Assembly: GCF_004341165.1 (NCBI RefSeq)
Contig: NZ_SLZR01000010.1
Location: 1 to 64,000 of the forward strand
Direction: 5' to 3'
Origin: Reinekea marinisedimentorum
GTDB lineage: Bacteria; Pseudomonadota; Gammaproteobacteria; Pseudomonadales; Natronospirillaceae
DNA: 64,000 nucleotides
In this document: piece by piece, positions 1 through 9,006 of the stretch
Layout: each line of letters begins with the position of its first letter
How positions within the stretch are numbered: position 1 is the first letter of the stretch
Translations under genes and position numbers: made by a program
The notes under the pieces: generated by a model
Databases searched by the model: none
What the model was told of the DNA's origin: nothing
The model's input: only the letters and a program-made list of their open reading frames with translations

Positions 1-263
1 GCAACAGTTAAAACGAATCAAAGGTCATAGAAGTAACGACACCTAACCGGCCATCATAGTTGTCGCGGACCGGACAAAGTAATTGACGTCTAACACCCTA
101 AAAAGTCGAACAGCCGAACGTGACTGCTTAACCAAACCTGCAGGCCTTGGCTGTAGGTTGCCTCGGCATAGGTGTAATTAGATGCACCCATAGCGGCAAC
201 AAAGATCTGGGCGTTGCGGATCTCACCAGTGGTGGGATCAACAATCGGTAGCGTTGGGCCGTT
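1..263 (-). pseudogene. istA: Decayed fragment of IS21-family transposase IstA (integrase catalytic core)
   Basis: Read on the minus strand from about 263 down to 93, one frame gives [20 protein letters not shown] followed by [18 protein letters not shown] and HVRLFDF. This is the DDE/rve core typical of IS21 IstA. An in-frame TAG at 90-92 and a frame change there break it: the shifted frame continues with a PVRDN stretch resembling the 'PDN' motif after the second catalytic region, and then stops. No istB and no complete IS end are visible. The same bases are also read in another frame as the C-terminus of the 142-aa gene at 128-556, so the fragment has probably joined onto and truncated that gene. 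The IstA assignment is by motif recognition only. How far it extends past the window edge is unknown. Confidence 0.75.
5..14. repeat. Left copy of 10-bp direct repeat flanking the recombinase segment
   Basis: CAGTTAAAAC at 5-14 recurs at 6057-6066 in the same orientation. The two copies bracket the recombinase operon. It may be a duplicated attachment core or target site. It lies at the edge of the istA remnant, so coincidence is possible. Confidence 0.35.
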
Positions 264-556
264 ACAGTGTTGTCATACTCATTCGGCTTTGTGGCGCCTT
301 CTTTCGCTGTCTTACTTAGTTCTGGAAGAACCCCTTTATTGCGTAGTTCTGTCTTTAGGTTTGCCTGCTCTTGTTTTAGGGCTAGGTTTTGAGTCAATGC
401 AGATTTACCGCAGCCGATAACTTTGGCTATTTTACCTCTGCCTAGTTGGCCTCTGAAGATGATTTGCTTGATGTCAGAATCAGGCTGAGTTGCAACCCAA
501 GACCTAAAGGCAGCGAGATTCTGCTGTGTTTTCTGCTGCCCGTTGATATTGCTCAC
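128..556 (-). CDS. Small helix-turn-helix protein of the recombinase operon, C-terminus replaced by IS21 sequence
   Basis: This is the last gene of the minus-strand recombinase operon, starting 5 bases after the upstream stop with a GTG codon preceded by AAGGA. I do not recognise a named family. Residues about 38-55 ([19 protein letters not shown]) look like a DNA-binding helix-turn-helix and resemble the 'KIGCSRPTL' segment of the preceding 165-aa protein; a charged helical stretch follows. From about residue 98 the protein is out-of-frame translation of an istA fragment (basic, proline-rich, unrelated to the N-terminus), so the native gene was probably longer and its 3' end is lost. If still made, the product would be a truncated chimera. 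A role as DNA-binding accessory factor to the recombinases is inferred from position only. Confidence 0.5.
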
Positions 557-561
557 AGTTT

Positions 562-1059
562 TTAGTCCTTAACGTTGTCATTTCGGGAAATTGAAAAGAC
601 GGTGCTTCTATTTTTGAAATCAATACCTTCGTCAATACTCTGTGAGCACAAGATGCATTTGCCTGCGGCTATAGAATCGTTTTCTGCGATAGGTCGTATC
701 AGAGCTGACATCTCACTAGAATGCCTATACAGGCGAGTAAAGATGTCTGCGTGGTTCTGCCTTAGTGCATTCAAATCCTCTTCCAGAGCTTTTTTCTCGG
801 CCTCTAGCTTCTCAATTTTCATGTGTAGCTGCTCTAACAGGGGGTGTTCCCGCTTTAAGCGTTTAGCGGCCCCTATCTTCTCGAGTACCGAATCAATAAA
901 TTCCTTCTTACTGTTAAGGGTAGGGCGACTACAGCCGATCTTACGAGCTAATTCTGAGGCATTGTAGACATACTTTTGATCACTATCAGAAAGGTCGATA
1001 AGTGCTTTCTCTATTGCATCAAGTAAGTTTTGCCCTCTGAGTTGTACGACTTTACTCAT
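562..1059 (-). CDS. Small HTH/coiled-coil accessory protein of the multi-recombinase module (TnpC/GmtX-like in position)
   Basis: A 165-aa protein with three visible parts: an N-terminal helix-turn-helix-like segment (about residues 32-50), a strongly charged coiled coil (about 75-101) and a C-terminal CxxC (C135, C138). Its ATG overlaps the stop of the 715-aa recombinase (ATGAGTAA), implying translational coupling. Position and build recall small helical partners of multi-recombinase elements, such as TnpC of Tn554 or the third member of 'gamma-mobile-trio' modules. Sequence family membership cannot be shown here. A role in helping or orienting recombination is inference. Base composition is AT-rich like the rest of the segment. 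Confidence 0.6.
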   Translation of the reverse strand: MSKVVQLRGQNLLDAIEKALIDLSDSDQKYVYNASELARKIGCSRPTLNSKKEFIDSVLEKIGAAKRLKREHPLLEQLHMKIEKLEAEKKALEEDLNALRQNHADIFTRLYRHSSEMSALIRPIAENDSIAAGKCILCSQSIDEGIDFKNRSTVFSISRNDNVKD

Positions 1060-3199
1060 GATTTAAAACCCCTGTAGACTCAATATTCTGTTTAATGCTC
1101 TGGTAGTGGCTGTGCTGTGGGGAAGTTTCTGGAATGTACAGCAGAGCACTTGCAGCCTCTTTATGCAGTTGGACAACTTCTTTCTTCGTTTCGGGATCAT
1201 TAAGGTCAAGGCACAGTGACTTGCAGACTCCTTCAGGACTGTTAAAGCAGGCATTATGGTTTTGGCAGCTTTCCATTCCCCAGTTAAGAGAACAGCCGCC
1301 ATGAGGCATTAAGTTCATTTGTAATGTGCAAGCCTCTAGGTATTCTTCAGCCTGCTTGCGAGAGTAGGTGGCGATATTGCTATAAGTATCAGCTACATGA
1401 CCAATAGCATTACCTTCTTTGATAGAGTTTTTCAGGCTTTTTAGTCTTGTTGTTGATAGAGTTTGATCGTAAACATGGTTTTGAGCCTCAGATCGATTAA
1501 ACAACAGCGCAACTTGTTCGCTAGGCATTCCCCCTTCAAGGTAATAGGTAGTTAACCAATGACGAATGTCGTGGCTGGTAAACTTTGCAATTGCCTCTGT
1601 TTTTGGATCGATAATGTTCAGCCGGCTGAATACACTATCTTCTTCTTTTCCAGTGCCAAGAGAGCGAAGTTCTCCACATAGCCAACGTGATATTCCTCCA
1701 TCACTCACAAAATAATATTCGTTGTGCTTAGTTCGCCGTTTGCTGGTTAGCGAGTACTTAGGGATGACCAAAAGAGCCTCTTCAGGCCAAAGTACTGCAT
1801 TTTCTTCATCATCCTTAATGATCGGCCTTTCTTTTCGTTGAAATTGTTTTTCTAACTTTGAATTAGATTCCGGTAATGGATAGGTTTTTCCTTTGAGTTG
1901 ATAGTTGTCCCTTGCATCTTCAATTAGCTTGATAGCAATCTCATGACATTCCTTGTTCGTGAATTTAGAAATATTTGTATGTTCAAACAGTCTTGCCATA
2001 GAGATAACACGACTATCCGTATCCCAATCAGTTCTTTCGCCCTTACAACGACCTTGTGCCTTTCTGGGCAATAGTCCTTGTCCAGCTCTTAACTGGCAGT
2101 CAAGCAGGTAATCCACCGTATGTCTTGAGACTTTAAGTAGTCTAGAGGCGGCTGATTTTGAGCCTAACTCGCCAATAAGGGAAATAATATCAATGTAACG
2201 TCGTTCTGACTGGAACCATGCTCTTCCTTGAATGAGCAGATGATGATCAAGATTGCTCGTCCATTGATGGCAGAACTCAATGACAAAGTATCGGGTAGCG
2301 TCAGGGTCTTGCATGATCCGAGTCCAATCTAATCCCGGACTCTTACGTTTTTCTGCTGCTAATGTACGCCCAGAGTCAGTAAGTCGGAGAATTCGCTCAT
2401 AGGCATCTTTAACTGTTTCATGCCAGTCATTCGGAATCCAGCGAACATCTAACTTTGGTTTTTTCTCTGGGAAGAACCGAATTCCAAGTCTGTCTCCTTC
2501 TTCAATAAGGGAATCTTCAGGTAGAGTTGCAAGTTCATTAATTCTGAAACCTGTTCCAATCAATAACGTAAACACTGACAAATAAAATTTATCTCTTTCT
2601 ATCAAGTCTTCACGTTGATTGGCGTTAATTAGGTCAACAAGAATATGAGGGTGTATGAGTTTATTCTCTCTATCTTCATCCGTTGCTTTTCTTCCATGAT
2701 AGTAATTGCTATTGAGTTTTTTGGTGTATGTAATACGTAAGCCAAAATTAATAGCCAACCATTTACCAAAAAGCTCTAAATAACCAGCCATACGGTAAGG
2801 AACTGACTTATTATATCTCTGCTGTATCAATTCTTGAGTTTCCTCAAAAACTGCGTTAGTTATTTTATTAAAAGGTCTTGCACCTAGTGCTTCGTCAATT
2901 AGGCAAAGTGGTGGAAGTATTGCAGCTAGCCCATTTCCTTCTTGGTACGATAAAAGCCGTTTTTCGACCAAGTAAGTCTTAATTGCTAGTTTTAACTCTT
3001 GATTCTGTATAAGTGAAAAATCAAGGTTGCGCACTTTTGAATTTCCTGGTCGTTTGAACCAGTCAATAATGTTCCACTGATCATCTGTGAATGAGACTCC
3101 AGGAGGTAAAGCGTCATTTAATCGAGAGGAAATACTGACAAGGGCATTATCAGCTTCATTTTTATGAAGAAAATTAAGTAATACAGCACTAGAACTCAT
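1052..3199 (-). CDS. Large tyrosine recombinase/integrase (715 aa) with Cys-rich tail
   Basis: The catalytic fold is shown by GTGFRINEL (Arg219), SHDIRHW (His543, Arg546, His547) and a late NHVYDQ with the probable nucleophile Tyr577; the usual His/Trp before the Tyr is Asn-Arg here (LLFNRSEAQ). A cysteine-rich tail follows (C636, C645, C651, C659, C663), probably a zinc-binding module. The first 200 residues are a long N-terminal region of unknown fold, probably DNA binding. At 715 aa it is far longer than phage integrases (about 350-400) and closer to TnpB of Tn554-like elements. It starts 3 bases after the stop of the 505-aa recombinase and overlaps the 165-aa gene, so all are probably one operon. 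The target site is unknown. Confidence 0.85.
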   Translation of the reverse strand: MSSSAVLLNFLHKNEADNALVSISSRLNDALPPGVSFTDDQWNIIDWFKRPGNSKVRNLDFSLIQNQELKLAIKTYLVEKRLLSYQEGNGLAAILPPLCLIDEALGARPFNKITNAVFEETQELIQQRYNKSVPYRMAGYLELFGKWLAINFGLRITYTKKLNSNYYHGRKATDEDRENKLIHPHILVDLINANQREDLIERDKFYLSVFTLLIGTGFRINELATLPEDSLIEEGDRLGIRFFPEKKPKLDVRWIPNDWHETVKDAYERILRLTDSGRTLAAEKRKSPGLDWTRIMQDPDATRYFVIEFCHQWTSNLDHHLLIQGRAWFQSERRYIDIISLIGELGSKSAASRLLKVSRHTVDYLLDCQLRAGQGLLPRKAQGRCKGERTDWDTDSRVISMARLFEHTNISKFTNKECHEIAIKLIEDARDNYQLKGKTYPLPESNSKLEKQFQRKERPIIKDDEENAVLWPEEALLVIPKYSLTSKRRTKHNEYYFVSDGGISRWLCGELRSLGTGKEEDSVFSRLNIIDPKTEAIAKFTSHDIRHWLTTYYLEGGMPSEQVALLFNRSEAQNHVYDQTLSTTRLKSLKNSIKEGNAIGHVADTYSNIATYSRKQAEEYLEACTLQMNLMPHGGCSLNWGMESCQNHNACFNSPEGVCKSLCLDLNDPETKKEVVQLHKEAASALLYIPETSPQHSHYQSIKQNIESTGVLNHE

Positions 3200-3202
3200 T
3201 CT

Positions 3203-4720
3203 CTACACCTGCTTTGTATTGGATTCAATATTGGCTATTACAGTCAGGATGTTGTCCTTCACTGCTTCAAATTCCTTGATGGTTGTTGCTGTCTTTTCAT
3301 CAACAGCTGTTTTATTCCAACGGTCTATCTCGGTTTCGATATAGTTTAGGGCTTTTCGATGATCTGCTTCTCTCCATGCTAGGAAACTCGGACAGCCGTT
3401 GTAGCAGCCGATAAATGGATGCTTATGACAATTGCCCTCTTTGACAGTATTGCGCCCACAGGACCCTACAAAGAGCGGAATGGGCTGATCTTTGCTGACA
3501 GTAGGAATCAATACTGGTTGATCACTGAGTTCATCAACAATCTTCCCATTGAAATACACTTGGTTTAGCTCTTTGAAGAAACTTCCCATGTTTCTATCCG
3601 CAGTATTAATCTGTGGGCAGAGTTCAGACCCAATGGCATCGATATATGATTGGCAGGAACAAGGGTCATCATGTTCTAAGATTTCAGCAATAATATCCCT
3701 AGAGACACCGGAGTAGGCCATTCGAGTTGCCCCAGTGTGGCGAATACGTGTGGGAGTTACGTGAATCGGTTGCTTAGTTCTAGGGCTGATAATTTTATTG
3801 CAGTATGTAGTTAGCATACTTTTTGCTATTGCTTGAGGGATAACCCCTGTTTTTTTGAGATCCGAACACTTAATCACCAGAAATCTATCATGCTCTTCTT
3901 GAAGTGCCTTTACGGTAGGTTTTTCTGAGTATTCAACCATTGCCTCATAAAGTTTTTCAGGGATAGGCCAAAGGCGCAGAGGGTCACCAGTTTGCGCTTT
4001 GACTGGTTTAATTTGGACAAAGTGCTGCTTGATGCCATCATTTTCAATACATTTAAGACAGTCCCTTCTTAATTCTCGGATTTGCTTTCCTCGTTTTAAG
4101 GTTGCGAACAGCAACCAACCAAACAAACTAACACCGAAGGTTTTGTTATCTTTACGGGGGGCTTTTTCGAGATGGTTTCTGATAAGGTTCTCTTCTTCAG
4201 GGGTTAGAGCACCTTTTGTTGGATGCCAATTGAGTACATCTTTGAGGGACCGGACATTTTTTCTTGCTTTTGTTTGTTTCAATTTCAGATATATTGAATT
4301 TTTGGCATCCAACATGCCTGCCTTAGCCATTTGGCCATACATTTCACGAAAAAAAATTCTGTTAGATGGAGTTTTAAGTGATTCCCATATATGCAGCACA
4401 CGGTTTGTATCTGAAGCATCAAAAGCTATGTGATCACTTTTTATGTTCGACGCAATATCTTCAAGCATTAACCGGTATTTATCGACGTAATGTGAACTAA
4501 CAGACTTTAATTTTTGCTTTAGTACTGCCTTAGCTGCATCCTTAAGAATTATAGGAAGGTCAATTTCAGCCCAATTAATATATCCGCCAAACTCCCAGTA
4601 ATCACTGGATACATCGATAAAAACTGGAGAACCTGGATCAAATTCACTCTTAATGAACAGATTTCCCCGTTCATTAGTCCAATGATCATATTCAGGGATG
4701 TAAGTTAATGGCTTATTCAT
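3203..4720 (-). CDS. Second tyrosine recombinase (505 aa), with C-terminal Cys motif
   Basis: Tyrosine recombinase signatures near the C-terminal half are TPTRIRHTGATRM (Arg327, His328) and LEHDDPCSCQSYI (His350, Tyr359), equivalent to the 'TPHDLRHT...LGH...Y' boxes. The first His of the usual HxxR box is Thr here. The box I arginine is probably in the RGKQIRELRRD segment (about 210-220). After the catalytic part there is a four-cysteine region (C421, C431, C439, C443), a likely zinc ribbon. The start overlaps the stop of the upstream 424-aa recombinase by 8 bases (ATGAATAA). Substitution of the conserved His may mean altered chemistry or a non-cleaving partner, but family alignment would be needed to say. 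Confidence 0.8.
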   Translation of the reverse strand: MNKPLTYIPEYDHWTNERGNLFIKSEFDPGSPVFIDVSSDYWEFGGYINWAEIDLPIILKDAAKAVLKQKLKSVSSHYVDKYRLMLEDIASNIKSDHIAFDASDTNRVLHIWESLKTPSNRIFFREMYGQMAKAGMLDAKNSIYLKLKQTKARKNVRSLKDVLNWHPTKGALTPEEENLIRNHLEKAPRKDNKTFGVSLFGWLLFATLKRGKQIRELRRDCLKCIENDGIKQHFVQIKPVKAQTGDPLRLWPIPEKLYEAMVEYSEKPTVKALQEEHDRFLVIKCSDLKKTGVIPQAIAKSMLTTYCNKIISPRTKQPIHVTPTRIRHTGATRMAYSGVSRDIIAEILEHDDPCSCQSYIDAIGSELCPQINTADRNMGSFFKELNQVYFNGKIVDELSDQPVLIPTVSKDQPIPLFVGSCGRNTVKEGNCHKHPFIGCYNGCPSFLAWREADHRKALNYIETEIDRWNKTAVDEKTATTIKEFEAVKDNILTVIANIESNTKQV

Positions 4721-5987
4721 GATTTAAAGCACCCCAGTTTTGCCTGCTTCCATAGATAGAAAGTGCTGTTTCTGCTCTATTTCTTCTAGCTCTATTAACG
4801 TAGATCTGAAGGCTGTCTGAACTTTGCCATCCGCCCCAATAGACTAAATCTTCTAATCGGGCATCATGTTGGGTAGGGTCTTTGTCCTTTATCTCAAGCA
4901 GACCAGAATATGCTCTATTGAAAAAAGCATGTCGAGCCAAGTGCCATCGAAAACTAGTTCCAGTATTTACTCTTATATCATCTGCAATATCCTGTGCTGC
5001 TGCTACTGATAATGGATCGCCCCTGTCATGTTGATGACTCAGCAATAGAAAAGCTGGTTTATCCATGATCCATTCAAAGACTTTTCTTCCGTGTTTAAGC
5101 ACCTTTCTTTTTCGGTACTTCGTTGTATATTCATTGATCAAATGAGGAATAGGGGAGTTGCTTAGAACGAACCCCAATTCTCTCGATAGAGTTTTCGGTC
5201 TAGGTGCATACTGCCCTCTAGGATCAATATAATCTGAACCTCGATCTTCTATCCTCACAATTTTTATTGAATTGGATTGCCTAGTAGGAAGGTCTTCTAG
5301 CCTAAGCGCTAGGATTTCTCCTTCTCGTAGGCCAAACTCAATTGCGAAACGCCAAAACAAATAGTCTCTAACTACCTGAGCTTTTGATACCTTTGGGCAG
5401 TTCTTAACTCTCTTGTCTGGTCTCAAGTAATCTTCAATGAGGTATATATCTTCTTCAGAAAGATCGTCTGCTACACGTTTGACCCTTTCTTTTACCTTTT
5501 GATCCGAAAACTGATGGTCTATGTAGTCCAAGTAGCTCTTATGTTTGATGGCTCGCTCAATTCCAGTCTCAACCATTTCGGCGCACTGGGTAGCAAAAAA
5601 CACGAAAAATCCTTTGCAGTAGGTTAAAACTCTGTTGATTACTTGAACAGAAATAGGGCCTTTGTTTCGGGTTCTCTTGCCTCGATTCTTTAACCAAAAA
5701 GAGAAATGGTTTACTTGAGCTGGCTTTAAGAAATCACCTTTTAAGGTAGTTTTATCAATATCTATGTTGAATTTATCTGCCCAGGCATAAAGAAACGTTA
5801 AACAGTACAAATTGTCATACACACTGTTATGGGAATCGGTTTTGTATGAAAGGTGGGCTTCAAGAATGGATAAGGCTAAAGGAATAGATTTATCGCTATC
5901 TCTTTGCACAAGAAATCTAACCTTATCTCCTGATAAAAATCTCTGAATGCGAAAACCTAAAGGTGATGAATCAAGCTGTTCTGCCAT
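4713..5987 (-). CDS. First tyrosine recombinase/integrase (424 aa) of a three-recombinase operon
   Basis: A complete tyrosine recombinase. It has an N-terminal SAM-like arm-binding region (about 35-135), box I Arg221 (FGLREGEIL), box II His349-Arg352 (WHLARH), Trp387 in the GGW position and nucleophile Tyr396 (LQIYVNRA). It is the promoter-proximal gene: transcription runs leftward through the 505-aa, 715-aa, 165-aa and 142-aa genes with overlaps or gaps of a few bases. Its last residues, LNHE, are the same as those of the 715-aa protein because both genes end in the coupled junction AATCATGA(A/G)TAA. It could correspond to TnpA of Tn554-type or GmtY of gamma-mobile-trio-type modules; this is by architecture, not by search. 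Confidence 0.88.
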   Translation of the reverse strand: MAEQLDSSPLGFRIQRFLSGDKVRFLVQRDSDKSIPLALSILEAHLSYKTDSHNSVYDNLYCLTFLYAWADKFNIDIDKTTLKGDFLKPAQVNHFSFWLKNRGKRTRNKGPISVQVINRVLTYCKGFFVFFATQCAEMVETGIERAIKHKSYLDYIDHQFSDQKVKERVKRVADDLSEEDIYLIEDYLRPDKRVKNCPKVSKAQVVRDYLFWRFAIEFGLREGEILALRLEDLPTRQSNSIKIVRIEDRGSDYIDPRGQYAPRPKTLSRELGFVLSNSPIPHLINEYTTKYRKRKVLKHGRKVFEWIMDKPAFLLLSHQHDRGDPLSVAAAQDIADDIRVNTGTSFRWHLARHAFFNRAYSGLLEIKDKDPTQHDARLEDLVYWGGWQSSDSLQIYVNRARRNRAETALSIYGSRQNWGALNHE

Positions 5988-6056
5988 AACTCGCTCTTAT
6001 ATATTTACATAAGTTGTACCACAAAAGATGTATTTGTTCAATAGTTGTTCAGCGAG
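5988..6056 (-). promoter_or_regulatory. Promoter region of recombinase operon with tandem TTGTTCA repeats
   Basis: AT-rich leader of the recombinase operon. Two direct copies of TTGTTCA (6034-6040, 6045-6051) lie exactly 11 bp apart, one helical turn, and overlap a plausible minus-strand -35 (TTGAAC). They could bind an autoregulator or be recombinase arm sites at the end of the element. TATA-rich sequence nearer the ATG could serve as -10. Confidence 0.4.
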
Positions 6057-6066
6057 CAGTTAAAAC
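6057..6066. repeat. Right copy of the CAGTTAAAAC direct repeat
   Basis: Matches 5-14 in sequence and orientation. It abuts the U-tract of the nrdJb terminator (6071-6103), where a site-specific recombinase could insert without harming the host gene. It is a candidate attachment-site half. Confidence 0.35.
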
Positions 6067-6070
6067 AAAA

Positions 6071-6103
6071 AAAAGCCCTAAAACATATAGTTAAAGGGCT
6101 TTT
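6071..6103 (-). terminator. Rho-independent terminator of nrdJab
   Basis: Nine-bp stem AAAAGCCCT (6071-6079) pairing with AGGGCTTTT (6095-6103) around a 15-nt loop. On the minus strand it is followed by a run of eight T residues, so it ends transcription of nrdJa-nrdJb. Confidence 0.85.
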
Positions 6104-6154
6104 GAGTTGCTTGTTGTGAAAAAACTAAGTTTTATCTTTACAGTTTTCTTGCCA

Positions 6155-6844
6155 TTACTGACACTTAGAATCGCCGCAGTTCAAACAAGTTAAACAGCCA
6201 TCCATAACAATGGCCGCCTTGGTATTACATTTCTTGCACAGCTGAGCGTCCGCCGGGAACTCGCTGCTTTCTTCTGAGTTGTCGGCTTTTTTAGCTTCGT
6301 ACTCGGCACGCTTTTCTTCGATCAGTTTCTTCTGGTGTTCATCCAGGCTGTCGTCTTTGATCATTCCGATTGACTTCAGGTGCTTTTCTACCACGTCGCC
6401 AATTTCAGCTACCAGTGACGGCATGAATTTGCCACCGCGTTTGAAGTAGCCACCTTGAGGATCAAACACCGCTCGTAGTTCGTCGACGATAAAGGTGATG
6501 TCGCCGCCTTTGCGGAACACGGCAGAGATCAGCAGCGTTAACGCCACGACCCATTGATAGTGTTCCATGTTTTTCGAGTTGATGAAGATCTCGAACGGTC
6601 GGCGCTGTTCGTGCTCGGTGCCTTCGTTAAGCAGCATGTCATTAATAGTCACATACATGGCGTGCTCAGACATGGGGGTTTTAATTTTATAGGTTGAACC
6701 TATGAGCATGTCCGGGCGCTCCACGGATTCGTGCATCTGTACAATAGAGGCTTTTTCAGCCTCAGCTTTGGCAGCTGCCGCCTTGGCCTTTTTCTCTTCG
6801 GTTAAAACTTCAAAACCGATAATTTTCTTTTCAATTTTTTTCAT
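6155..6844 (-). CDS. nrdJb: Class II (adenosylcobalamin-dependent) ribonucleotide reductase, small C-terminal subunit NrdJb
   Basis: A 229-aa protein corresponding to the C-terminal part of one-piece class II reductases. It matches the separate NrdJb polypeptide known in Pseudomonas, which is needed with NrdJa for activity. Residues about 45-155 form the conserved 'TSCPD-like' region (GSTYKIKTP, INDML, PFEIFINSKN). The C-terminus carries paired cysteines (CKKC, CLTCLNC) that probably serve as the thioredoxin- or glutaredoxin-reducible pair and/or a zinc site. The N-terminal 40 residues are Ala/Lys/Glu-rich. It lies 11 bases downstream of nrdJa in one operon ended by the terminator at 6071-6103. 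Confidence 0.9.
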   Translation of the reverse strand: MKKIEKKIIGFEVLTEEKKAKAAAAKAEAEKASIVQMHESVERPDMLIGSTYKIKTPMSEHAMYVTINDMLLNEGTEHEQRRPFEIFINSKNMEHYQWVVALTLLISAVFRKGGDITFIVDELRAVFDPQGGYFKRGGKFMPSLVAEIGDVVEKHLKSIGMIKDDSLDEHQKKLIEEKRAEYEAKKADNSEESSEFPADAQLCKKCNTKAAIVMDGCLTCLNCGDSKCQ

Positions 6845-6855
6845 CTGAGTATTCC

Positions 6856-9006
6856 TTAAAACTTACCGTAGTAGCCTTCTTTCAGGGCATCGAACAGGTT
6901 GGCGGCGGTGTGGGTTTCGCCATCGTATTCAACTTCTTCGTTACCTTTAACTTCGATGGTGCTGCCATCTTCAAGGTTGAAACGGTAAGTTGTGTTTTCC
7001 AGATCTTTCTCTTTCACCAGTACGCCCTGGAAGGCTTCCGGATTGAAGCGGAAGGTTGTGCAACCCTTCAGGCCTTGCTGGTAAGCGTATAGATAGATGT
7101 CTTTAAAATCTTCAAACGGGTAATCGGTTGGTACGTTCGCCGTTTTCGAGATGGAGGAATCAATCCACTTCTGCGAAGCGGCCTGAATATCTACATGCTG
7201 GGTTGGTGTTACATCATCGGCAGCAATGAAGTATTCCGGCAGTTGTGCTTCCGGGTCTTCGCTGAACGGCATTGCTTTGCTGTTGATCAGTTCGCGATAA
7301 GCCAGTAGTTCAAACGAGAACACATCGACTTTCTCTTTCGATTTTTTACCGGCACGGATAATGTTGCGGCTGTAGTGGTGCGCAAAGCTTGGCTCAATAC
7401 CGTTGCTGGCATTGTTGGCAATAGAAAGGCTGATGGTGCCAGTTGGCGCAATCGACGAGTGGTGTGTAAAGCGTGCACCTGTTTTGGCCAGTTCGTCGAC
7501 CAGTTCCGGCTCAATTTCGGAAAGCTGCTGCATGTAGCGGCTGTACTTGGCGTGCAGAATTTTACCGGCCAGCTTGTCGCCTACCTGGTAACCGTCTTTG
7601 AGCAGTTCCGGACGGGCGCGTACCATTTCATGAGTAATCTCGAACTCCTGATCCATGATCGGAGCGGCGCCTTTCTCTTTGGAAAGATCCAGCGCAGTCT
7701 GCCAGCCGGCCACGGCCATGACCTTGGTCACTTCTTCTGTGAAAGCTACGGAATTGGCATCGCCATAGCGCATCTGCAGCATGGTAATGGTGCTGCCCAG
7801 GCCCAAATAGCCCATGCCGTGGCGGCGCTTGTTCATAATTTCGTTACGCTGGCCTTCCAGAGGTAAGCCGTTAATCTCAACAACGTTGTCGAGCATGCGG
7901 GTGAATATTTTCACCACTTCGCGGTACTTATCCCAGTTGAATTTGGCGTTTTCGGTGAACGGCTCTTCCACAAACTGGGTCAGGTTAATGGAGCCCAGCA
8001 GGCAGCTGCCGTAAGGCGGCAACGGCTGTTCGCCACAAGGGTTGGTGGCGCGAATGGTTTCGCAGAACCAGTTGTTGTTATATTCATTGACCTTGTCGAT
8101 CAGGATAAAGCCTGGTTCGGCAAAATCGTAGGTGGAGGTCATAATGACGTTCCACAGGTTACGAGCCTTGATGACGCGGTAAACGCGGCAGGCCACTTCA
8201 CCTTCATTGTTGGTCATGTAGCCGTTCTTAACGTGCCAGTCTTTCCAGATAACCTGTGTTGGATCACTGGTATCCAGCTTGTCGCGTTTTACTTCCGCTT
8301 CCGAAACCGGGAAGACCAGTGGCCAGTCGGCATCATCCTTCACGGCTTCCATAAATTCTGAGGTGATCAGCAGCGAAAGGTTGAATTGACGCAGGCGGCC
8401 GTCTTCACGCTTGGCGCGGATGAAGTCGATCACATCCGGGTGGCTGATGTCGAAGGTTGCCATCTGAGCGCCACGGCGACCGCCGGCAGAAGAGACGGTA
8501 AAGCACATGCGGTCATAGATATCCATGAACGACAGCGGACCCGAGGTATAAGCACCTGCACCGGAAACAAAGGCGTTACGCGGGCGCAGGGTGGAAAATT
8601 CGTAGCCAATGCCACAACCGGCTTTCAGTGTCAGGCCGGCTTCGTGAACTTTTTCCAGAATACCATCCATAGAATCTTCGATGGTGCCGGAAACAGTACA
8701 GTTGATGGTGGAAGTCGCGGGTTTGTGCTCCAGTGCACCGGCGTTAGATACAATACGCCCGGCCGGAATTGCGCCGTTTTCCAACGCCCAAAGGAATTTT
8801 TTGTTCCACTCGTCCTGCTTTTTCTTGTTCACTTCAACGGAAGACAGTGCGGCAGCAACACGCGCAAAGGTGGCCTGCAAATCGTCGTCTACAGCCGTTC
8901 CGTGACTGTCTTTAAGGCGGTATTTAGCATCCCAGATATCGATCGATGCATCCTGATGAGCAATTTTGACGCAGTTGTCATGTTCCAGTTGAGTGTTTCC
9001 GGTCAT
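6856..9006 (-). CDS. nrdJa: Class II ribonucleoside-diphosphate reductase, catalytic subunit NrdJa
   Basis: Reduces ribonucleotides to deoxyribonucleotides with adenosylcobalamin as radical source, independent of oxygen. Hallmarks are the N-terminal redox Cys103 (STINCTVSG), the glycine-rich GCGIGYEFS region (about 130-137), the active-site NPCGEQPL motif (N322, C324, E326) and the SIAPTGTISL motif around residue 540. At 716 aa it is the usual length of the larger half of the split enzyme; nrdJb follows directly. No cobalamin riboswitch is visible in the 178-bp upstream gap. Instead there are two candidate NrdR boxes. Such a reductase suits life under low oxygen, in line with the nap and hydrogenase genes in this window. 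Confidence 0.93.
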   Translation of the reverse strand: MTGNTQLEHDNCVKIAHQDASIDIWDAKYRLKDSHGTAVDDDLQATFARVAAALSSVEVNKKKQDEWNKKFLWALENGAIPAGRIVSNAGALEHKPATSTINCTVSGTIEDSMDGILEKVHEAGLTLKAGCGIGYEFSTLRPRNAFVSGAGAYTSGPLSFMDIYDRMCFTVSSAGGRRGAQMATFDISHPDVIDFIRAKREDGRLRQFNLSLLITSEFMEAVKDDADWPLVFPVSEAEVKRDKLDTSDPTQVIWKDWHVKNGYMTNNEGEVACRVYRVIKARNLWNVIMTSTYDFAEPGFILIDKVNEYNNNWFCETIRATNPCGEQPLPPYGSCLLGSINLTQFVEEPFTENAKFNWDKYREVVKIFTRMLDNVVEINGLPLEGQRNEIMNKRRHGMGYLGLGSTITMLQMRYGDANSVAFTEEVTKVMAVAGWQTALDLSKEKGAAPIMDQEFEITHEMVRARPELLKDGYQVGDKLAGKILHAKYSRYMQQLSEIEPELVDELAKTGARFTHHSSIAPTGTISLSIANNASNGIEPSFAHHYSRNIIRAGKKSKEKVDVFSFELLAYRELINSKAMPFSEDPEAQLPEYFIAADDVTPTQHVDIQAASQKWIDSSISKTANVPTDYPFEDFKDIYLYAYQQGLKGCTTFRFNPEAFQGVLVKEKDLENTTYRFNLEDGSTIEVKGNEEVEYDGETHTAANLFDALKEGYYGKF

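Follow-up and report, generated by a model that had tools for sequence, protein, structure and literature searches.

A probable ginABCD module of a GInt/Tn6571-family island at the 3′ end of nrdJ in Reinekea marinisedimentorum

Among mobile islands with several recombinase-related genes in a row, the gamma-mobile-trio (GMT) islands carry the set gmtY-gmtZ-gmtX. They are covered in PMC12715929. The GInt islands, with the gene set ginABCD, were described by Bardaji et al. (2017; PMC5385486) and have been treated, together with the Tn6571 family, as elements that carry defence functions in E. coli (PMC10121019). Recombination requires the whole gin quartet, a resemblance of GinD to TnpC is reported, ssb is a published target, and GInts of P. 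aeruginosa are reported from the end of a ribonucleotide reductase alpha gene (PMC5385486). An element is counted as a GInt if one or more of its integrases show homology to a GInt integrase at E < 1e-5 (PMC10121019). The recombination of strand-biased circularizing integrative elements (SEs; intA-tfp-intB-srap) and of some GInts leaves no empty site (PMC10214605). Here we describe an operon of tandem tyrosine recombinase (TR) genes located behind the class II ribonucleotide reductase genes of Reinekea marinisedimentorum, in a stretch of 64,000 nucleotides, referred to below as the window (positions 1 to 64,000 of contig NZ_SLZR01000010.1, assembly GCF_004341165.1). Its gene content, homology and location make it highly probable that this operon is the ginABCD module, that is, the 5′ end, of an island of the GInt/Tn6571 family that integrated site-specifically at the 3′ end of nrdJ. 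The features of the locus are the following:

4713..5987, minus strand: ginA-like tyrosine recombinase, 424 aa, with R, HxxR, W and Y present
3203..4720, minus strand: ginB-like tyrosine recombinase, 505 aa; HxxR His replaced by Thr, Arg/His/Tyr kept; C-terminal cysteine cluster
1052..3199, minus strand: ginC-like protein of the tyrosine recombinase fold, 715 aa, with R219, H543, R546, R569 and Y577; four-cysteine cluster
562..1059, minus strand: ginD-like small protein, 165 aa; helix-turn-helix (HTH)-like part, coiled coil and CILC
257..556, minus strand: 5′ part (about 100 of 143 codons) of a VPA1267-family gene, the fifth gene of the operon; the open frame extends to 128 through foreign DNA
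97..261, minus strand (by our own reading of the reverse complement): IS21-family istA fragment that cuts the VPA1267 gene
1..95, no strand: end of a repeat that breaks the assembly, exactly matching the starts of contigs C3 and C28
6132..6164, minus strand: left element end on the attL side, GTGTCARTAR-N11/12-TGTAAAGWTAA, which overlaps the final nrdJb codons
6060..6106, minus strand: element-borne terminator-like hairpin after nrdJb, -15.4 kcal/mol, z -4.4
6155..6844, minus strand: nrdJb (TSCPD, C-terminal part of class II ribonucleotide reductase), the target gene, ending ...KCQ* instead of ...KCG*
6856..9006, minus strand: nrdJa, class II ribonucleotide reductase, the host gene upstream of nrdJb

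The first and second genes overlap by 8 bases, the second and third are separated by 3 bases, and the third and fourth again overlap by 8 bases; coordinates and lengths confirm the coupled operon of three tyrosine recombinases and a 165-aa gene that had been recognised in an earlier note made from the sequence alone. That note missed a fifth coupled gene, which starts at 556, 5 bases past the stop of the fourth, and belongs to the VPA1267 family (NF040697, 100.5 bits against a cut-off of 90, with only residues 5-100 matched). The segment is AT-richer than the host, as the note had claimed: the GC content of positions 257-6150 is 0.404, against 0.525 in the remaining window, and the lowest value among 260 overlapping windows of equal length elsewhere is 0.501. 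The Pfam profile Phage_integrase matches all three large proteins (505-aa protein, 30.0 bits; 424-aa, 24.8; 715-aa, 21.2), the 505-aa protein alone passing the gathering score of 27.1 bits. By our own reading of the sequence, the small protein combines an HTH-like N-terminal half, a coiled coil and the CxxC motif CILC, in agreement with the earlier description, and searches of Pfam and NCBIfam yield only sub-threshold coiled-coil matches for it.

When the window proteins were compared with reference sets by blastp at E 0.5, the closest relative found was locus L030 from a metagenome-assembled genome (MAG) labelled Geobacter, with 39-45% identity over all four genes, followed by L018 from a Pseudomonas plasmid with 29-32%, likewise over all four. 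The same four-gene order is present in L030 and in L018, L019, L020 and L021 from Pseudomonas and Citrobacter plasmids. Matches at E 2.4e-7 or better link genes 1-3 to L019 and L021 and genes 2-3 to L020, so that at least one integrase is homologous, at E < 1e-5, to an integrase of these three ssb-seated sets. The window operon thus has three TR-fold genes and a small gene in the order ginA-B-C-D, and the earlier opinion that three large recombinases with a small protein are unlike the known sets is not supported, because this is exactly the published composition of ginABCD (PMC5385486) and genes 1-3 match the ssb-seated gin sets. The candidate gin locus L031 was rejected, its match covering only 25 residues and the locus holding one ordinary integrase frame.

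With a profile of gene 2, matches at E 1e-3 were obtained in 26 of 390 genomes from the order and in 67 of 398 from the phylum; 48 of the latter, weaker than E 1e-6, were left aside. Among 14 loci chosen from the better matches (a selected set), 11 contain the complete ginA-B-C-D series by model, with broken genes in L138, L139 and L141; two of the others have an unmatched small open reading frame at the ginD position and one is cut by the contig end. In nine of the 14, ssb lies directly upstream of ginA. This module class lies behind both ssb and nrdJ, and also within a yebG-like gene of a plasmid. Gene 2 produced no phage match at E 1e-5 and gene 4 no plasmid match at E 0.01.

The layout of four genes is also that of SEs, which are common in Alteromonadales, Vibrionales and Pseudomonadales (PMC10214605), but none of the window proteins matches the intA-tfp-intB-srap quartet of the pAQU1 SE, the one SE used as a reference, at E 0.5. 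Furthermore, Tfp is described as lacking RHRY, with homologues below 550 aa filtered as truncated (PMC10214605), whereas gene 2 encodes 505 aa and keeps Arg, His and Tyr; on these grounds we reject the SE assignment as very improbable. A GMT island, in which gmtY-gmtZ-gmtX would be followed by the VPA1267 gene, is brought to mind by the fifth gene, which is closest to GMT-linked copies, and by the weak similarity of GmtY to the GinA model (33-38 bits) and to gene 1 of L018 (E 1e-4). Such similarity is of the general recombinase kind, the reference sets being weakly alike among themselves (SE IntA to L018 gene 1, 0.008). None of the four window proteins matches NF040693, NF047926 or NF040692, the families that genuine GMT proteins match strongly; profile comparison gives a probability of 2% for GinC/GmtZ and 0.5% for GinD/GmtX; and blastp of GMT proteins against the window returns only a 17-residue GmtX match at E 0.29. 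The relationship to GmtX/Y/Z or Tn554 families raised in the earlier note thus found no backing, with no match by the four proteins in NCBIfam at E 1, and in the lack of GmtY, GmtZ and GmtX family matches we see reason to dismiss a GMT island as extremely improbable.

Some observations weigh against the assignment to GInts. The BLAST matches of the 165-aa GinD are limited to L030 and L018, the phylum of L030 is taken from the label of the MAG, and homology was assessed against ssb-seated gin sets in place of the GInt proteins published by Bardaji et al. Moreover, no attR or right end was found in the genome by searching with the attL core: with up to 2 mismatches, 48 matches were obtained against 30 for a reversed-pattern control, and among those inspected, the exact one is attL itself and two with one mismatch (C13, C36) do not resemble an element end.

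Alignment of 20 gin sets showed that GinA keeps R, HxxR, W/H and Y in 18 (exceptions L140 and L142), that GinB lacks the HxxR His in 19 (exception L143) and retains Arg and Tyr in all, and that GinC retains R, HxxR and Tyr in all 20, with Arg at the third His/Trp position in every set. In 10 aligned third-gene proteins, both the catalytic-type positions of GinC and its four cysteines (C636, C645, C651 and C659 of the 715-aa protein) are invariant, and C421, C431, C439 and C443 of the 505-aa protein are invariant in 3 sequences, which substantiates the C-terminal cysteine clusters noted previously in two of the recombinases. GinC has been described as lacking the first Arg (PMC5385486) and as lacking the RHRY motif and the catalytic Tyr (PMC10214605). 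As an alignment result only, with the published reference protein outside the comparison, our data differ from these descriptions. Structure prediction for gene 3 from two sequences gave a pLDDT of 39.7 and no usable fold. Should GinC prove catalytic, models that assume two active recombinases would need revision.

The insertion is specific for a gene end, attL overlapping nrdJb and the product being kept. We detected nrdJb in 20 of 38 genomes searched, including that of the window; the gene ends in KCG* in 14 copies, KCQ* in three (the window and the congeners G372 and G374), KCS* in two and KCN* in one. Behind nrdJb, G374 retains a decayed ginA remnant (39.5% identity over 200 residues) and G372 a 30-residue piece of such a remnant; because the two genomes are nearly identical here, they probably record one event. 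No gin gene is present in the 10-11 kb around nrdJb in the congeners G369, G370, G371 and G373, in which nrdJb ends in KCG* or KCN*, and the comparison with related genomes proposed in the earlier note has therefore provided unoccupied sites. The note had held that the same genes at a syntenic place in relatives would speak against mobility; this applies to the two congeners with decayed remnants and not to the four without any, a distribution that we read as site specificity and not as a fixed housekeeping cluster. A fixed and immobile chromosomal cluster, with which the remnants at the same place in two congeners would agree, appears exceedingly unlikely in view of the four gin-free congeners with their KCG* or KCN* ends, the deviating GC content of the segment and the presence of the module class at three kinds of sites.

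The L030 module, too, is located behind nrdJ, the gene ending in ...ECQ*, and shares the left-end motif with the window; L018 and L137, relatives at other sites, do not show the motif. A hairpin with a T-rich tail was found in all three elements folded, those of L055 (-16.9 kcal/mol, z -2.3) and L030 (-21.8, z -5.7) besides that of the window, which had been missed by a simple terminator scan whose loop limit it exceeds. We read this arrangement as an element that may complete nrdJ and carry its own terminator. The change from KCG* to KCQ* offers an easy diagnostic of an occupied nrdJ site. In the genus of the window, two genes, nrdJa and nrdJb (window 6155-9006), encode the class II ribonucleotide reductase, which the Geobacter MAG has as a single gene of 741 aa (L030 5325-7550); the island lies at the C-terminal end of the enzyme in both the split and the unsplit form.

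Mobility is directly visible in a relative. L018 opens a 39,714-bp insertion in a yebG-like gene of the Pseudomonas plasmid pTmex-577K, and seven other plasmids share its left flank at 99.5-100%, ending at the junction or at most 3 bases from it and matching nothing else in the 23-kb L018 query. Read against one of the seven, pZXPA-20-602k, the junctions are attL CCATGACTT, attR CCATGAATT and attB CCATGACTT, that is, imperfect 9-bp repeats, so that the flanking imperfect direct repeats of GInts are present in L018. The cargo includes, by annotation, dioxygenase, formaldehyde-metabolism, transhydrogenase and RND efflux genes. Together with the four congeners devoid of gin genes behind nrdJ, this upholds the proposal of the earlier note that the operon is the recombination module of a mobile island. 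The same plasmid harbours a second insertion of 5,656 bp, 295 bases beyond the 39.7-kb island (L190 19923 to the record end; 571922-577576 of the record), with a quartet encoding a 322-aa integrase, a 566-aa protein without Pfam match, a 474-aa protein with a sub-threshold integrase match and a small protein; judged by this gene content, it is a putative minimal SE-like element without cargo.

In the window, base 1 is also base 1 of the contig. Leftward of the VPA1267 part lie the istA fragment (97-261) and then the 95 bases identical to the starts of C3 and C28; with this fragment and a repeat common to three contigs, the left side is broken by insertion sequences, and because the contig ends in the repeat, the cargo, which the earlier note supposed to lie left of the window or to have been lost, and the right end were not recovered. 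At the start of C28 (L006 8-478), the repeat ending at window base 95 interrupts, by our own reading, a phage-type integrase frame, and at the start of C3 (L008) the third copy ends near an aldolase-like gene (own reading). The MCP-YqgE-MFS block, which is downstream of nrdJ in congeners, was located at the end of contig C8, where no element end was recognised; adjoining it (L060 7770-8387) is a repeated sequence like CCACAAAAAGCGACAGCTGTCG without a long open reading frame. Contig C23 of the same genome contains a 255-base stretch that is 94% identical to window 329-583 and spans the last ginD codons and the VPA1267 start, suggesting that a second such element, or a copy of its piece, was once present in the genome. 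Several copies of the short repeat AGTCGCAGCTTATG and its complement are located in C23 (L002 540-730), about 800 bases from the orphan VPA1267 fragment.

At E 1e-3, members of the fifth gene's family (NF040697) turned up in 15 of 361 genomes from the order, 8 of them over the cut-off, and in none of 14 control genomes; of the 19 places concerned, we examined 17 and dropped two weak ones inside frames of more than 1000 codons (G685, G519). In the class sample it was found in 4 of 369 genomes at E 1e-3, one, the window's own, being over the cut-off, which is too rare to count. The gene is located in or behind gin sets at 8 of the 17 places (window, L143, L176, L179 twice and decayed, L181, L182, L183), behind gmtYZX at three (L173, L178, L180), behind other sets of large proteins at five (L174, L175, L177, L184, L185) and alone at one (C23). 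Among the other sets, L174 and L184 have the layout of SEs, an integrase being accompanied by a protein that Pfam does not match and by another large protein; in sequence neither matches pAQU1. A single clear integrase was recognised in L175 and three integrases in L177, one of which stays below the cut-off; in L185 there is only a sub-threshold integrase, together with a very weak VPA1267. Other genes stand between the small protein and VPA1267 in L174 and L177, in the latter a thymidylate synthase-like gene (6208-7059, own reading), an unusual place for cargo. In the decayed set of L179 (6462-10304), VPA1267 and helicase pieces lie between ginC and the ginD-like gene, not behind ginD.

In 12 of 16 loci the gene next to VPA1267 encodes a RecD2-like SF1B helicase, which is reduced to a fragment in L179 and L181 and split in two in L173; this count leans on GInt- and GMT-linked copies because the helicase model was built from them; three such helicases score 358-427 bits for TIGR01448, below its cut-off of 500. 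Three of four GMT plasmid loci list an ATPase gene, the fourth ending at the start of the record with no further gene listed, and in L149 of the phylum sample the pair follows a gin set, its VPA1267 scoring 60.6 bits, under the cut-off. No helicase follows in L178, L180, the window (257-556) or C23, all of which have a shortened VPA1267: the gene breaks off at differing points some 60-100 codons from its start, and the border of the cargo seems to wander within it. Near the window element no RecD2-like helicase was found; the best match in the genome, a 601-aa frame on C7 (28% identity, E 9.8e-18; C26 also has a weak match), was taken for an ordinary RecD and discarded as a partner.

A core role of VPA1267 is argued against by its absence directly behind ginD in the closest gin relatives L018, L030 and L137, and by L018 having evidently moved without it. 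The window VPA1267 shows 51-60% identity to L174 and to four GMT-linked copies (L022, 58%; L023, 60%; L173 and L025, 51-52%); the value is 33% with L175 and 22-33% with six further GInt-linked copies. In the tree, which contains several long branches, its partner is C23 (100/98), the two being nested in a clade (98/94) of GMT and SE-like copies that leaves out the six GInt-linked ones. By these identities and the tree, the window gene seems to derive from a GMT-type island. The GinD and VPA1267 profiles have a 50-column HTH-like stretch in common (hhalign 92%, E 6e-7).

VPA1267 and the RecD2-like helicase recur behind GInt, GMT and other recombinase sets and perhaps form a shared accessory pair. 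More tentatively, and with the odds against it, the pair could be exchanged between unrelated multi-recombinase islands (GInt, GMT, SE-like), with VPA1267, through its distantly GinD-like HTH, bringing the helicase to the single-strand-exchanged att junction, where unwinding would lead to copy-out transposition; the window would then hold the stump of a pair from a GMT-type source. We did not find such a pair in the literature searched, with most subscription journals out of reach, and none by title among the matches listed; among the matches listed, the papers on VPA1267, VPA1269 or VPA1270 do not contain VPA1267, and the main text of the GInt (PMC5385486) and SE (PMC10214605) papers uses neither "helicase" nor "RecD". 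If real, the shared pair would link three kinds of mobile islands and provide a handle on how such elements leave a copy behind.

For the window module we envisage that GinA, GinB and GinC, together with the small DNA-binding GinD as a TnpC-like helper in strand exchange, would recombine a short core of the element with the last codons of nrdJ; both this catalysis and the corresponding excision are inferred. The element would contribute the terminal Gln codon in place of Gly, together with the stop codon and the terminator-like hairpin, so that the host gene is kept and the operon is read away from nrdJ towards the cargo. Accessory genes would lie behind ginD, the helicase possibly serving as a helper in recombination; only the start of VPA1267 remains in the window, and since it is cut by IS21 debris, this copy is probably stranded.

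Comparison with the known systems assigns a seemingly odd operon to the GInts, extends the GInt targets to the nrdJ end, in two hosts that are far apart (one of them placed by its MAG label), and supplies attL, attR and attB for a relative. Like Tn554 (tnpABC) and RIT elements, the window has several tandem tyrosine recombinase genes. Tn554, with two recombinases, was rejected on gene content (TnpA, TnpB and TnpC only), a comparison of gene content in which no Tn554 protein was used, and RIT because its three recombinases of 315-410 aa, all with the catalytic Tyr and no fourth gene listed (PMC10214605), differ from proteins of 424, 505 and 715 aa plus a fourth gene. With GMT islands the locus shares VPA1267 (elsewhere also the RecD2-like helicase) behind the recombinase genes, but neither a family match nor a GmtZ or GmtX profile match. 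SEs resemble it in the four-gene layout, the small auxiliary coiled-coil protein and site specificity, yet differ in sequence (pAQU1) and in a second gene without RHRY. Variable cargo and a short AT-rich 3′ end are features of GInts; the window contig ends behind the truncated fifth gene, and the L018 island extends over 39.7 kb. Compared with GInts, the window is distinguished by nrdJb as the target, with the last codon changed to Gln, by VPA1267 coupled behind ginD and by a GinC that aligns with Arg I and Tyr; it agrees with them in having three recombinases and a small helix-loop-helix-type protein encoded in one operon at the island end, seated at the 3′ end of a host gene.

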